Source of the DNA: Frondihabitans sp. PhB188
GTDB taxonomy: Bacteria > Actinomycetota > Actinomycetes > Actinomycetales > Microbacteriaceae
Length of the DNA stretch: 64,000 bases
NCBI RefSeq assembly: GCF_003752365.1
Contig: NZ_RJUO01000003.1
Coordinates: forward strand, 620,001-684,000
Direction: 5' to 3'
Shown here: one piece after another, positions 3,294-21,982 of the stretch
Numbering within the stretch: position 1 is the first letter of the stretch
Layout of the letters: every line of letters starts with the position of its first letter
The notes under the pieces: model-generated
Told to the model about the DNA's origin: nothing
The model's database searches: none
Seen by the model: only the letters and a program-made list of their open reading frames with translations
Position numbers and translations under genes: made by a program

Positions 3294-5399
<2,106 letters not shown>

Positions 5400-17792: not shown

Positions 17793-18300
17793 GCGATCGA
17801 GAGTCGGAGTGGCTCGCGGAGAACGTCTCGACAACACGGACGCCCGCAGGACGTAGACGTAGGTCGGGCTTTCGCCGCCCGGTATCTGCGGACGCTGAGG
17901 AACCACAAACTGCTGGGCGCAACACCCAGCGGATGGCGCGCGCCCTGCGAATTGGACCCTCATCTGATCGATGAACAAGATTATCTCGTCGTGGGACGGC
18001 CTGGTTCCTTGGTGAAAAACGCGAACTCAGGACCTCGTTCGCCCGCTTCAGCTCCGCGACTTCACGCTTCAGGCGAGGGTTCTCCTCGAGATCGTCCGAT
18101 GTCACACCGGGCCGCCGGCCGGCGTAGACCTCATAGCGGCCCTGCCACATCTGAAGCGTCTCCGGACATCTCTTGAGCATCCCCGCGACATGACGAATCG
18201 CCGTCATCAGGTTCGGTGCTCCGGGCGGGCCTCCGAAAGCGCCCTCAGAGCCCGTTCGCGCATCTCTGCTGTTTATCTGGCCATGGTTTCCATCCTTGAT
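17790..18300 (-). pseudogene. Decayed IS3-family transposase remnant (orfA plus start of orfB)
   Basis: Minus-strand remnant. About 18000-18290 encodes an OrfA-like stretch (NSRDARTGSEGAFGG, then GRRPGVTSDDLEENPRLKRE and the coiled AELKRANEVL), close to IS3/IS911-type OrfA proteins. Nearer 17790-17985 pieces of OrfB appear in mixed frames (FIDQMRVQF, then PQIPGG in one frame and ADTGRRKPDL in another), showing frameshifts. The catalytic DDE region is missing and no paired terminal repeats are evident. It marks the left side of the A+T-rich island. Confidence 0.7.
17830..17850. repeat. Imperfect direct repeat flanking the island, left copy
   Basis: GACAACACGGACGCCCGCAGG; differs at only two positions from 21886-21906, which lies 4 bp from the 3' end of tRNA-Arg(CCT). 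Candidate attachment repeat or leftover of a second IS copy. Confidence 0.6.
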
Positions 18301-18513
18301 CAAAAGACGGAACTAAACCCAGGCCAATTCAATGCCAACTCTTGCCTCATGCTGCCTGCCAAGTAGCGCCCTTCAGACATAGTCCCCTTGGCGCCATCGC
18401 TGAAAAATTATTCATACAGGTCGTCGGCGACAATGGCCGCGCCGAGCCCTAGAATCGAACCCATATTAAATTGCGAATGACAGCACGAATCATGAAAGCG
18501 CGCCCAACCAGCG
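18301..18513. other. A+T-rich downstream flank of the DGQHR gene
   Basis: No gene seen. On the minus strand 18446-18463 reads GGGTTCGATTCTAGGGCT, which looks like the T-arm and acceptor end of a tRNA but lacks the rest of the molecule. Confidence 0.5.
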
Positions 18514-20817
18514 TCACAGATCGTTGTCAGTTTGGCCCTTGACCAGCCAAGTATGCAGCGTGGTCAGGAGGTCGTGGTCGTCGACCGATACCGTTCGTTG
18601 GTGCGCAACATCGTTGCGCAAATCGCTAACCGATGCAATCCAACTGGTGCGACCTTTCCGACCGCCGGGCTTGTTCTCGTCTCCAGGAGGCGTGTAACGC
18701 TTTTCAAACAGCTCTTGCCAAAGTTCCTGCGTCTGGATCATCACGTCGCGGTAGTTGACGATATAAAGGCAATCCCACTCGTCAATTTCTTGTCCAGGCA
18801 CCCGATCTGCGTTGCGTTCGACCATGATCTTGCCGGCCTCGACGCGCAAATTCCTGGGCACACCAAACTTGAACCACTCTGCCCCATACCTGTCCTGCAG
18901 GCGCTTTCGGACGTCTTGCTTCATAAACGCCTCTAGGGCGTCGATCATGTCGCGAGACTCGTCGTTGAACTGCTTCTGCTCATCAAGCAGATACTCCTCT
19001 AGGCCCGGCGGGTTGAATTCAGGCCGGGCCTCGTTCACCGCTTGCTGCAGACGCCGCCAGTACTTTGTCCCAGCACCAGACCCGTATAGTTGTCGGTATT
19101 CAAGGCCCTCGGCCGGCTCTAGACCTGCAAGATAATCGATCATAGAGTCCAAATAAGGTACTGCATCCTCGTAAAGGGTTCGCGAATTCTGAAGTCTCGG
19201 GTCGTAGTCGCCGCCTTGGGTTGCATTGTGGACAACGATGTCGCCTAGGAGCCGAATGATCGACTCGATGCCGTTATTAATGAACACGAATCCGCCCTCT
19301 GCGCTACCGAGCTTATATTGGACGTCCAGGTGTTCTCGAACATGACCGATTCCTAGTGCGAGGTACTCAAACAGGGCATCGCAAGTCGCATCGTTGGTGC
19401 CTCGGTAGAAGGTACCAATCTCTTTCACCTCCGACTTAGTGAATGTGCCAATGAACCCTCCCCTGTCGAGACCTCTTGCGACTGCGTCGATAGTGAGGCA
19501 CCGAAGCGGAGTCTTCGTTTCTTCCCCAACTTGAACGCGGCCATAGAGCGGTGACACCTTGTCCTCGCCGAGTCTTTGTGCGAGCACTAATTTAAGCGCT
19601 TTTGACTGCTCGCGAAGGTCATCGGACGCATACAGAAGATCGGCGTTGAGAGTGTTACGGAGGTTTTTCGGTACGGCCTGTTGATTCTCATTAACATCCA
19701 TGAACATCCGCATTTGAGCCGAGCGACTGAGCGACACGAATGCGACGACAGGAATGAGATCCGTTGCCGCTCGAGCGCTGGCAGAGTACCCATACAAGCG
19801 GTGCTGCCCGTCTATGACATAGGCTGCCCTGAAAGTCTGCGGCAGATGCAAGATGCCAGCGCGGGTCTGTCCGTCCACCTTCCGGAACGCGTCAAATTGA
19901 AGACCGCGTGGGCCCCCTTCCAGGCTCAGAATCAGCGAGTTAGGGAAGTACCCCCCAGAATCGACAAACTGGGCCACGTTCTTAAGGCGTGTCTTTTTAA
20001 TAAGGCGCTGATAGGTGGGCATGAGGCTCGAGTTTGCCTTGTTCCTGTGCAAGATGTAGCCAAGTTTGAGTAGACGATCTGGCTCGATAGAGAATGAGTA
20101 ATACTTCTGGCCGCCCATAGAGGCCTCAATTGCCACTACTTCGTGGTTCAGGTTCGGAATTTTCTGGCCCGCGAAGAGATTCCCGAGAAGCTGGAACCGG
20201 GCAGCCGCGCCAAGGTGATCTGCTAGGGCAAGGTAATAATCAATCACCTCGTCACCCATATGGATGATATCCGCGTCCGCGATCCGTTCCGCGGTTGGCT
20301 TCGTAACGCCGTAATTGTTCGTAGCCAGCACGAATTTCACTTTGTGGTTCTCGTACTCGTTCTTGATGGAACGGAGCATTCCGGCCCGCTGGCCCTGAAT
20401 CGTCTCGATTTCCTTTTTGAACTGACCAGTCCTAGTCTCCGCCGTTGATTTGCACTCAACCACTAGAACGACGTCATCGTCGGCAGCAAAGACGTCGATC
20501 TGTTGGCGCTCTCCGATGCCGGGGCCGTACTTAAGGGTTAGGAATCGATCTTTATTCAGCGAGGTAAAACCGAGCTTTGCAAACGTCGCCCAGACGCGAT
20601 CCTCAAACGCCACGTCATGAGGCTTTGCTTTCCTCATGCGCACAGAACGCTTATTCCGGGTATCAACTACCCATCCTTGCTCCTCCAGTTCTGGGATACG
20701 GGTGGGCGGAACTGTTTGCAACAAGACGGGAGCCAACCGCCTGCGGGTCTCGGCCAAAATACTTTTCTCTGGCACTAAGGCGTCGCGGATCAACTCGCCC
20801 TGCGGTGGGAGCGTCAT
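18514..20817 (-). CDS. Nuclease-DGQHR-HEPN fusion protein, putative defence effector
   Basis: 767 residues, three parts. Residues about 65-165 look like a PD-(D/E)xK nuclease: FEDRVW (E72), QIDVF (D108), then VVECKS (E121-K123), the Mrr/restriction-endonuclease pattern D-x12-ExK. Residues about 230-480 hold a DGQHR domain: YVIDGQHRLYGYS (336-340) followed by MFMDVNENQQAVPKNLRNTL, as in the phosphorothioation regulator DndB and its relatives. The C-terminal about 120 residues end in LRNDVAHQ, a Rx4H HEPN-type RNase/toxin signature (R734, H739), similar to Swt1-like HEPN domains. The ATG overlaps the stop of the upstream D12 methyltransferase gene (ATGA), implying coupled expression. A+T content and codon use are unlike the flanking genes, so acquisition by transfer is likely. 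The overall function is inferred. Confidence 0.75.
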   Translation of the reverse strand: MTLPPQGELIRDALVPEKSILAETRRRLAPVLLQTVPPTRIPELEEQGWVVDTRNKRSVRMRKAKPHDVAFEDRVWATFAKLGFTSLNKDRFLTLKYGPGIGERQQIDVFAADDDVVLVVECKSTAETRTGQFKKEIETIQGQRAGMLRSIKNEYENHKVKFVLATNNYGVTKPTAERIADADIIHMGDEVIDYYLALADHLGAAARFQLLGNLFAGQKIPNLNHEVVAIEASMGGQKYYSFSIEPDRLLKLGYILHRNKANSSLMPTYQRLIKKTRLKNVAQFVDSGGYFPNSLILSLEGGPRGLQFDAFRKVDGQTRAGILHLPQTFRAAYVIDGQHRLYGYSASARAATDLIPVVAFVSLSRSAQMRMFMDVNENQQAVPKNLRNTLNADLLYASDDLREQSKALKLVLAQRLGEDKVSPLYGRVQVGEETKTPLRCLTIDAVARGLDRGGFIGTFTKSEVKEIGTFYRGTNDATCDALFEYLALGIGHVREHLDVQYKLGSAEGGFVFINNGIESIIRLLGDIVVHNATQGGDYDPRLQNSRTLYEDAVPYLDSMIDYLAGLEPAEGLEYRQLYGSGAGTKYWRRLQQAVNEARPEFNPPGLEEYLLDEQKQFNDESRDMIDALEAFMKQDVRKRLQDRYGAEWFKFGVPRNLRVEAGKIMVERNADRVPGQEIDEWDCLYIVNYRDVMIQTQELWQELFEKRYTPPGDENKPGGRKGRTSWIASVSDLRNDVAHQRTVSVDDHDLLTTLHTWLVKGQTDNDL

Positions 20818-21677
20818 GCGATCGGTAAATTCGTGAACAGGTATTCGGTGGCGCGCCCCCGGGCCGCCAACCTGCCTCCTACATTATTCTTTCGACTGGT
20901 TTCCACGCGCCTGTCCCCCTTCTCGAAAAGCTCGGAAATAGATGTGTGCGCCGCATTGGTCATCACGTAGTAAGCGCCCCGGTCTCGAACCTGATCTATC
21001 GAGGCGCTTAATCGCTCTTGGTCGGCAAATAGGAACAATCGGTCGTTGTACTTCACGAAGCCATTGCTGTTGTGAGCCACCGTGTATGGGGGATCAAGGA
21101 AAACGAGGTCTCCCTCGCCAACTTCACGGAGCGCTTTCGCAAAATCCCCCACTAGGAGCGACGCAGACTCCAACCGACTGCTCGCTAATTTGAGCTGCGT
21201 CAGATCTGGCCGATTGTCCGTCTCCTTATACCCGAACGGAACGTTATACTCCCCTCGCAGATTGACCCTGTGCAAACCATTGAAAGAAGTGTGATTAAGG
21301 AAGATAAACCTCGCGGCACGATTGACTGGCGTCCGTGGTCTGGCCGCACGAGCCTCGTAATAGTCCTGGGCCGTGTTTTTGTATTTGCGTAACCGGTTCC
21401 AAACGTCTTCTGGGGCATCTCGCACCGCGGAATAGGTCTCGATGAGGTCCGCATTTAGGTCGCACAGATACGAATGGCCCCCAAAATCAACCCCGAAAAA
21501 TATAGCAGCGCCACCAGCGAAGGGTTCGTGGTAGTTGCGAATCGGTATGCCGGTTGTAAGTTCCTCAACGTAGGAGACAAGCCAACGTTTTCCGCCCGCC
21601 CATCGAAGAAAGGGCGGTAGGCCTAAATGGGACCACGTCGGCGCCATTGCCGAGGGTTCCGGTGATGCCTCCGACAT
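20814..21677 (-). CDS. D12-class N6-adenine DNA methyltransferase (Dam-like)
   Basis: 287 residues from ATG 21677 (an upstream start at 21743 adds a 22-residue tail without similarity). FLRWAGGKRWLVSYVEEL is motif X plus AdoMet-binding start, YHEPFAGGAAIFF is motif I (FxGxG type), and LVFLDPPYT is the catalytic DPPY motif IV; FIFLNHTSFNGLHRVN is the conserved D12/Dam block. It transfers methyl groups from AdoMet to adenine N6; the recognition sequence is unknown. In an operon with the nuclease-DGQHR-HEPN protein, so it probably marks self DNA or provides a mark that the partner reads. Low G+C relative to the core genes. Confidence 0.88.
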   Translation of the reverse strand: MSEASPEPSAMAPTWSHLGLPPFLRWAGGKRWLVSYVEELTTGIPIRNYHEPFAGGAAIFFGVDFGGHSYLCDLNADLIETYSAVRDAPEDVWNRLRKYKNTAQDYYEARAARPRTPVNRAARFIFLNHTSFNGLHRVNLRGEYNVPFGYKETDNRPDLTQLKLASSRLESASLLVGDFAKALREVGEGDLVFLDPPYTVAHNSNGFVKYNDRLFLFADQERLSASIDQVRDRGAYYVMTNAAHTSISELFEKGDRRVETSRKNNVGGRLAARGRATEYLFTNLPIA

Positions 21678-21743
21678 GTATGTCCTTGTCCTACAGAAGT
21701 TGAGTGGGTCGATGATATGCGTGCCGCCCGTCGCTCTGTGCAA

Positions 21744-21885
21744 AACACGCCGAATGAGAGACTGTCAGTCATAAAAAAGGCAGGGTGGTTCCGGCACTTA
21801 ATTCACAACCACTTCGAGCTGGTCCTCCGCGGTGCGAGTTTCGCTGACAACATCCACTTCGGACTGCTATGAAGCCTTGTTCCTT
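21744..21885. promoter_or_regulatory. Promoter region of the methyltransferase operon (A+T-rich)
   Basis: Gap between the tRNA-Arg gene and the methyltransferase gene. It is A+T-rich and contains a CATAAAAAA tract near 21770; it must hold the promoter of the two-gene operon, but I cannot assign -35/-10 boxes confidently. No gene seen. Confidence 0.4.
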
Positions 21886-21906
21886 GACAACACGCACGCC
21901 CGCAAG
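21886..21906. repeat. Imperfect direct repeat flanking the island, right copy
   Basis: GACAACACGCACGCCCGCAAG; 19 of 21 positions match 17830-17850. It ends 4 bp from the 3' end of tRNA-Arg(CCT), the usual place for integration of mobile islands. Confidence 0.6.
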
Positions 21907-21910
21907 GCAG

Positions 21911-21982
21911 TGCCCCTGGAGGGACTCGAACCCCCAACCCTTTCCTTAGGACGGAACTGCTCTTCCATTGAGCTACAGAGGC
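21911..21982 (-). tRNA. tRNA-Arg (anticodon CCT)
   Basis: 72-nt cloverleaf on the minus strand. Acceptor GCCTCTG pairs with CAGGGGC (one G-U), D-arm GCTC/GAGC, anticodon loop GTCCTAA with U33 and anticodon CCT reading AGG, T-arm with loop TTCGAGT, discriminator A. CCA is not encoded. Its 3' end faces the A+T-rich island. Confidence 0.9.

Follow-up and report, generated by a model that had tools for sequence, protein, structure and literature searches.

What do a DNA adenine methyltransferase and a large multidomain DGQHR protein do together when their genes overlap? The question is raised by a gene pair of Frondihabitans sp. PhB188, located in a 64,000-nucleotide (nt) stretch of contig NZ_RJUO01000003.1 (positions 620,001–684,000); this whole stretch is called the window, and coordinates refer to it unless a locus is named. 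The pair occupies 18514–21743 on the minus strand, with the ATG of the fusion gene (20817–20815) and the TGA of the methyltransferase gene sharing four nt (ATGA). A preliminary description, drawn from the letters of the sequence, had read it as a two-gene defence system; its coordinates, strand and ATGA coupling are right, the 4-nt overlap being visible in the sequence. It is likely that the pair is a real modification- or restriction-type defence module. The best explanation as a whole, to which we assign a probability of roughly 0.55, is an island-borne, restriction-modification (R-M)-like anti-phage module in which the DGQHR domain would couple the status of a DNA mark to swappable effectors.

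The fusion gene (18514–20817, minus strand, as are all its parts) encodes 767 amino acids (aa), assigned from profiles and an AlphaFold2 model to a winged-helix-like N-terminus, a PD-(D/E)xK nuclease, a DGQHR domain, a helical region and a Swt1-like HEPN domain. The model, built with 79 sequences, reaches a mean predicted local distance difference test score (pLDDT) of 89.5 and a predicted template modelling score (pTM) of 0.75. The N-terminal part (residues 10–64; 20626–20790) is tentatively winged-helix-like, with an HTH_39 match of E=7.4e-05 for the window segment and a predicted H-H-E-H-E-E order; among the N-terminal segments scanned with Pfam, a single one of 79 matches HTH_39. The nuclease core (residues 67–188; 20254–20619) comprises in the model a helix, strands at 86–130 carrying D108, E121 and K123, a helix at 134–154 and a strand at 159–170. 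In the same scan of relatives, Hjc is matched by 34/79 and Card1_endonuc by 15/79 N-terminal segments at E<=0.01. Whole-protein Pfam scores of the window fusion are weak and all below the Pfam cut-offs (Hjc 0.0036, PDDEXK_4 0.019, HEPN_Swt1 0.0016).

At the centre lies a DndB/ParB-sulfiredoxin-like DGQHR domain (residues 226–451; 19465–20142), matching TIGR03187 with E=4.6e-36 (125 bits, cut-off 58.85) and DndB PF14072 with E=1.2e-12. Its DGQHR motif (336–340; 19798–19812) is followed by the NENQQ block (376–380; 19678–19692), of which N376 and Q379 are kept in 81/81 full-length relatives. The C-terminal Swt1/Abi2-type HEPN domain (residues 618–759; 18541–18966) matches HEPN_Swt1 with E=5.5e-05 as an isolated segment and contains the Rx4H motif R734–H739 (RNDVAH; 18601–18618); among relatives, 30/79 C-terminal segments reach E<=0.01 with this model, the lowest E being 4.1e-07. 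Modelled in isolation by AlphaFold2 (pLDDT 91.3), the C-terminus finds its top Foldseek match in AbiF, a HEPN protein (template modelling score 0.55, probability 0.84, E=1.2), all other matches listed having probabilities <=0.08. The whole-model Foldseek search, whose matches stand for the full protein without aligned ranges, lists Card1, Cdn1, AF1548, EndoMS, McrBC, sulfiredoxin and ParB-like proteins at probabilities of 0.66–1.0 amid unrelated low-probability matches, including sulfiredoxin (0.98, E 0.2) and the ParB-like PadC (0.97, E 0.3). A PDB sequence search with the fusion profile had no match at E<=1 other than two designed proteins, and PADLOC 2.0.0 holds no model that matches the fusion across its whole length. 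The nuclease-DGQHR-HEPN architecture of the preliminary description is thus supported by AlphaFold2 and the Pfam scans of relatives, and weakly by Foldseek; the catalytic triad, DGQHR, NENQQ and Rx4H residues stand where it had placed them. Structure prediction without a nuclease core or a HEPN fold would have spoken against it, and both are predicted.

The methyltransferase is a D12-class (Dam/DpnM-type) DNA adenine-N6 enzyme (20814–21677, minus strand), as proposed earlier: it matches PF02086 (E=2.6e-39) and TIGR00571 (dam; 186.6 bits, cut-off 114.85) above cut-off and has the DPPY catalytic motif (21084–21095; D217–Y220 of the 309-aa open reading frame, ORF), which is invariant in 24 aligned methyltransferases. 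The ORF is open to a TTG at 21743 (309 aa); the start is probably the ATG at 21677 (287 aa) and the listed TTG too far upstream, since a GA-rich stretch precedes this ATG and 287 aa is closer to the lengths of relatives. The nearest solved structure is 2dpm (DpnII methylase 1, DpnM; E=2e-43), followed by DNA adenine methylases such as 4rtj (E=1.3e-27), which we take to be Escherichia coli Dam. An NGL..R.N..NVP-type segment is largely common to the protein and to the Dam and DpnM structures in structure-relative alignments; in Dam it presumably contacts GATC. GATC specificity was not kept as a firm claim; DpnII adjoins the methyltransferases of some relatives, but these are 29–30% identical to the window enzyme. 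The gene is the sole PF02086 match in the whole genome.

The coupling of the two genes was surveyed across 81 full-length fusions: 77 from one tblastn scan of GTDB species genomes (E<=1e-3; 325 relatives, possibly including DGQHR-only proteins, of which the best 80 were kept), the window, a genome of the same family (locus L002) and two plasmids (L005, L006). The window's own copy (L001), two partial DGQHR matches (L003, L004) and three truncated proteins of <700 aa (L048, L070, L082) are excluded from these counts. Two pairs are identical (L050/L051, L080/L081), giving 79 different rows; L005 and L006 are counted among the 81 and are absent from the 79-row alignments A3, A5 and A6, and L118–L120, found later, are in neither set. 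Gene-cluster calls rely on BLAST at E<=1e-8 over half the length, which distant homologues could escape.

A D12 methyltransferase is present in the same gene cluster in 76/81 fusions, the co-occurrence on which the preliminary description had staked its proposal. In 62, the fusion is immediately preceded on its strand by a Dam-type gene, which overlaps the fusion gene in 45, by exactly 4 nt in 18 of these; such a gene follows the fusion within 113 nt in six and is separated from it by one DpnII gene in three. The remaining five carry a different D12 type (cluster C6) in a same-strand cluster (L011, L037, L039, L042 and L071; Pfam on L011 and L037). Methyltransferase and fusion distances correlate (r=0.41, n=62), the highest of 500 shuffles giving 0.20. 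Thus, as expected of a type II R-M system, a methyltransferase gene is coupled to a putative nuclease gene, both by the ATGA overlap here and across the survey, and a candidate nuclease fold with catalytic residues is provided by D108/E121/K123 on a PD-(D/E)xK-like order, the window's own scores remaining under the Pfam cut-offs. In L034, L036 and L038 the fusion lies inside a DpnII-type operon; by Pfam, that of L034 encodes a D12 methyltransferase, DpnII (1.9e-94), the fusion and an N6/N4 methyltransferase. DpnII and the second methyltransferase were profile-scanned in one of four loci and assigned by BLAST cluster in the others. A reversed order, fusion, methyltransferase and a small cluster C7 protein, is seen in L077, L078, L084, L085 and L086 (DUF7226 in L077, the one scanned).

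DGQHR is the sole motif among those compared that is kept in all 81 relatives. Per residue, D108 is kept in 71/81, E121 in 64/81 and K123 in 60/81 (a further nine with R), so that the triad (DEK or DER) is intact in 62/81; R734 and H739 are both present in 41/81. Both motifs occur together in 31 fusions, the nuclease motif by itself in 31, the HEPN motif by itself in 10 and neither in nine. A quick maximum-likelihood tree explains the Rx4H trait with one change and the triad with nine. The preliminary description had inferred that the fusion acts on DNA and possibly RNA; as a general mechanism, DNA plus RNA cutting is not supported, and its universal form, contradicted by these losses, was rejected. 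With DGQHR invariant and the effector motifs variable, the core of the system seems to be the DGQHR domain with its modification enzyme, the effectors appearing exchangeable.

The nine fusions lacking both motifs (L046, L052, L053, L055, L056, L058, L059, L060 and L063) form one clade (SH-like approximate likelihood ratio test, SH-aLRT, 100 on the quick tree). Gene clusters C2–C4 lie upstream in 9/9 of these loci and in 0/74 others, of which 15 show <2 kb and 59 at least 2 kb of upstream sequence. Profile scans of L046 and L052 identify C2 as DrmA (3.1e-137 and 1e-134), C3 as DrmB (7.2e-44 and 4.4e-44) and C4 as NERD-helicase (5.2e-43 and 1.5e-46), proteins of the defence island system associated with R-M (DISARM); these two of the nine were scanned with PADLOC profiles, and the other loci were assigned by BLAST cluster. 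Such genes would be the expected outcome if the fused domains were replaceable effectors, and the double-dead loci are a possible, undescribed DISARM-like subtype. In these Bacillota loci, among them L046 (186–7141) and L052 (249–7172), genes for DrmA, DrmB and NERD-helicase lie upstream of the D12 methyltransferase and the motif-dead DGQHR fusion.

The pair looks like part of a small mobile island. G+C content per 1-kb block is 54.6–56.4% from 18 to 22 kb and 64.6–76.9% in all other blocks of the window, which bears out the A+T-rich island described earlier and puts it at ~4 kb and ~55% G+C. A tRNA-Arg (CCT) gene (21910–21982, minus strand; ARAGORN), a probable integration hotspot, has the pair on its 3' side, and a 4.06-kb element is enclosed by 22-nt direct repeats (91% identical) at 17827–17848 and 21883–21904, probable attachment-site halves of which the right one adjoins the tRNA 3' end. 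Synteny with a congeneric genome (G001) holds on the tRNA side and breaks on the island side, which fits the expectation for an integration hotspot. The left repeat copy has no match with <=5 mismatches in the relatives' loci L115 and L116; an empty site was not found for the left side, where matches to the flanking DNA fall elsewhere in relatives. No candidate integrase was seen among the element's listed ORFs, for which no profile search aimed at integrases was made. At the island's left end (17862–18325) is a transposase-like remnant, with a stretch of 79% identity on contig C1 of this genome; the remnant was so named from the ORF alone, with no Pfam match.

A three-step mechanism is proposed for the module. 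Judging from its family, the Dam/DpnM-type enzyme would methylate adenine at GATC or a close relative across the host genome. Related through its ParB/sulfiredoxin fold to the DGQQR NTPase switch of SspE, the DGQHR domain would read whether DNA bears this mark and change state, probably with nucleoside triphosphate (NTP) turnover. Wrongly marked DNA would then release the fused PD-(D/E)xK nuclease against itself, with HEPN forming a second, RNA-cutting, abortive layer. We take DGQHR as a switch gating the nuclease because the DGQQR motif of SspE is needed for the GTP hydrolysis that licenses its HNH nuclease after mark recognition (PMC13251355), and because kinship of DUF262 and DGQHR has been argued (PMC4619093); papers cited by PMC identifier are cited from the parts available to us. 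The chances that DGQHR is the mark-reading switch are about even. It is evenly balanced whether DNA cleavage is the primary effector in the window system, and the odds that its HEPN domain is an active RNase are slightly less than even.

Several observations weigh against this reading. No methyltransferase was seen in L005 and L006, which have radical-SAM neighbours; in L013 the methyltransferase is 4 kb upstream, in L072 it lies on the opposite strand with DpnII, and L051 is at a contig end. The window's HEPN_Swt1 score of 23.9 is below the Pfam gathering score of 27.5, and every Foldseek match has E>0.001, the best of 309 whole-model matches reaching 0.0092. Another R-x4-6-H occurs in the last 90 residues of 9/40 rows without R734/H739, so some HEPN domains scored as dead may be live. 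The 9/9 effector swap counts as one event because all nine fusions fall in one clade, and close relatives are over-represented because only the best 80 of 325 loci were retained. Nuclease losses where Rx4H is intact (6 versus 1) are not significant at p=0.14, in a reconstruction that also needs two regains. Significant complementarity of nuclease and HEPN losses was accordingly rejected; with this p value, and with too few informative pairs in the independent-pairs test, complementarity is kept as suggestive only.

Were the methyltransferase and DGQHR domain to monitor methylation, with HEPN-mediated cell arrest as the main output and the nuclease as an accessory, the trigger would be a phage or other element that blocks or changes host methylation. 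Consistent with such an abortive guard, Rx4H is kept with a broken triad in 10/81 fusions, a state involving eight changes on the tree, at least six of them forced by well supported branches; three relatives carry the fusion within a DpnM-DpnII-type operon, where the operon's restriction endonuclease (REase) should restrict already, and a PNKP-type 3'-phosphatase upstream in three actinobacterial loci (Pfam on one) would fit end repair. However, 31/81 fusions have the nuclease triad and lack R734/H739, which makes HEPN catalysis unlikely as a general output, and we regard the guard as rather unlikely.

The invariance of DGQHR would equally fit a licensing scheme of the Ssp kind, in which binding to N6-methyladenine (m6A)-marked self DNA and NTP turnover by the domain would license the nuclease against unmarked invading DNA; loss of the methyltransferase would then silence the effector rather than unleash it. 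SspE with DGQQR works in this way with phosphorothioate (PMC13251355), but its domain is DUF262/GmrSD_N and its nuclease HNH, the window fusion falls below cut-off against GmrSD_N (E=0.12, 12.9 of 33.2 bits) with no HNH match in Pfam, and m6A binding by DGQHR domains is an assumption, which together leave this scheme unlikely. A further alternative would have the fusion repress or modulate the methyltransferase operon in the manner of DndB, or would make the pair a selfish addiction module for which phage defence is a side effect. It would accord with the proposed role of DndB as a negative regulator of phosphorothioation (PMC10853773, PMC4507180) and with the winged-helix-like N-terminus, but is improbable given the island location, the DpnII association and the retention of triad or Rx4H in 72/81, the other nine carrying DrmA/DrmB/NERD-helicase.

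Returning to the module in which DGQHR couples mark status to effectors, a wider reading can be offered tentatively: the DGQHR protein might be a general immunity adaptor, one mark-reading NTP switch combined with various DNA-marking enzymes (Dam-type D12, the second D12 type, a radical-SAM/DpdB-like module) and various killers (fused PD-(D/E)xK, fused HEPN, or DrmA/DrmB/NERD-helicase in trans). If true, modification-gated defence would have gained a new class that bridges simple R-M and DISARM. The pair itself looks like a compact two-gene defence module, found across several phyla, that unites restriction and abortive parts in a single protein. It also points to a way in which a simple methyltransferase-plus-reader core could give rise to DISARM-like systems or have them grafted onto it. 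Natural variants of the pair (both effectors intact, either broken, or both broken with DISARM genes) form a ready-made series in which the role of DGQHR/ParB-like domains in immunity becomes directly testable.

The fusion family is sparse. Its phyla include Actinomycetota, Bacteroidota, Bacillota and, as a metagenome-assembled genome, Spirochaetota, among others. Full-length fusion matches occur in two of 149 genomes of relatives, the genome under study included; 2 of 396 genomes of a phylum sample match at E<=1e-30 (its own and G206), as do 3 of 396 of an order sample (its own and two more, which match the fusion and methyltransferase queries at the same identities as L007 and L014 do). Among 36 matching plasmid records, five cover at least 80% of the query. 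No relative was found in viral contigs, where none of eight pattern matches was confirmed, and phage records gave only four partial DGQHR matches. A one-off fusion was rejected on account of the 77 full-length relatives in the one GTDB species-genome scan and the plasmid matches.

Other neighbouring genes vary among the loci. A radical-SAM gene adjoins the fusion, and no methyltransferase was seen, in a divergent branch (L005 on plasmid pNL1, L006, and L118, a 4.3-kb locus from a genome of the window's phylum); this branch possibly carries an as yet undescribed DNA modification. On the two plasmids, L005 (10311–14451) and L006 (10371–14594), genes for another DGQHR protein and for an ATP-binding protein (Hsp90-like ATPase, Pfam on L005) go with the radical-SAM gene; in L118 the radical-SAM gene (3394–4266) stands beside the fusion. 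The Pfam match of the L005 radical-SAM protein is below cut-off, its name coming from the record's annotation. Directly upstream of the methyltransferase in L002 lies a PNKP-type polynucleotide 3'-phosphatase gene (4684–5229, minus strand; PF25109 E=3e-20), with the same cluster in L007 and L012 (all three actinobacterial; Pfam on L002); such a phosphatase could repair RNA or DNA ends. L039 (4121–7939) and L042 (10393–14176) combine the other D12 type with an AAA_15/AAA_21 ATPase and an HNH protein by the fusion (ATPase and HNH by Pfam on L039), the latter two presumably resembling Septu PtuA/PtuB. Just downstream of the fusion in L017 (10941–12122) and L043 (10915–12105) is a shorter ORF (393–396 aa) of the fusion cluster.

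How the pair relates to known systems can be judged part by part. The locus-tag prefix Saro_ is, we assume, that of the species carrying pNL1. A ParB-HEPN (Swt1-like) fusion, Saro_3948, appears in Table 1 of the 2013 survey by Anantharaman et al. (PMC3710099) and, linked through this tag, is very probably the pNL1 relative in L005, whose fusion shares DGQHR and a Swt1-like HEPN domain with the window protein at 33% identity and differs in its neighbourhood, with a radical-SAM gene where the window pair has a methyltransferase. That entry lists the fusion alone and does not mention an REase part, a D12 partner or an effector swap; the available parts of the survey also argue that in R-M proteins the HEPN parts serve as a fallback, of the kind proposed above for the second layer (PMC3710099). 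The preliminary description knew of no described system with this combination; this stands insofar as open-licence PMC papers yielded no description of the system, and needs correcting insofar as the HEPN-ParB fusion was listed in 2013. The nuclease part, D12 partner, DISARM-carrying clade and DpnII operons seem new beyond that listing.

Phosphorothioation was rejected: dndC has no match in the genome, which bears out the earlier claim of absent dnd genes for dndC, and the DndB and DpdB equivalog cut-offs are missed. dndD gave a sub-cut-off match to positions 1–59 of 650 only, and dndE was not searched. Dnd and Dpd share the DGQHR superfamily (fusion against the DpdB model E=6.6e-19, DndB E=3.7e-06), but the fusion misses the equivalog cut-offs by a wide margin (DndB 24.9 of 328 bits, DpdB 59.4 of 300), and these models span 352–355 residues versus 767 aa. 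SspABCD-SspE and GmrSD resemble the pair in a ParB/sulfiredoxin-type domain, DGQ[H/Q]R, a nuclease fusion and a tie to DNA modification (PMC13251355, PMC4619093). They differ in their DUF262 family and HNH nuclease and in acting with DNA that is phosphorothioated or glucosylated instead of adenine-methylated, and the GmrSD_N and HNH results given above do not place the fusion among them. To our knowledge, SspE and GmrSD have no HEPN or PD-(D/E)xK domain.

With DISARM, the double-dead clade shares DrmA and DrmB homologues beside a methyltransferase, drm clusters being confined to those nine among the surveyed loci; the available sections of PMC12458937 name no DGQHR protein or D12 methyltransferase as a DISARM part, and the whole window genome gave no DrmA match, drmB not having been searched. 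PD-Lambda-5 is described as a compacted R-M plus abortive-infection (RM+Abi) system (PMC9519451); the window methyltransferase matches its subunit B (1.1e-12) far more weakly than its best PADLOC match, MTase_II (2.7e-80), and the fusion does not match PD-Lambda-5_A. DpnII/MboI type II R-M systems likewise couple a Dam/DpnM-type methyltransferase to a nuclease gene and, in three loci, enclose the fusion itself; the window partner differs as a 767-aa multidomain protein with DGQHR and HEPN rather than a DpnII-fold REase. Taken at the level of sequence, the pair would be a variant of modification-gated, R-M-like defence that falls outside Dnd, Ssp, DISARM and PD-Lambda-5.

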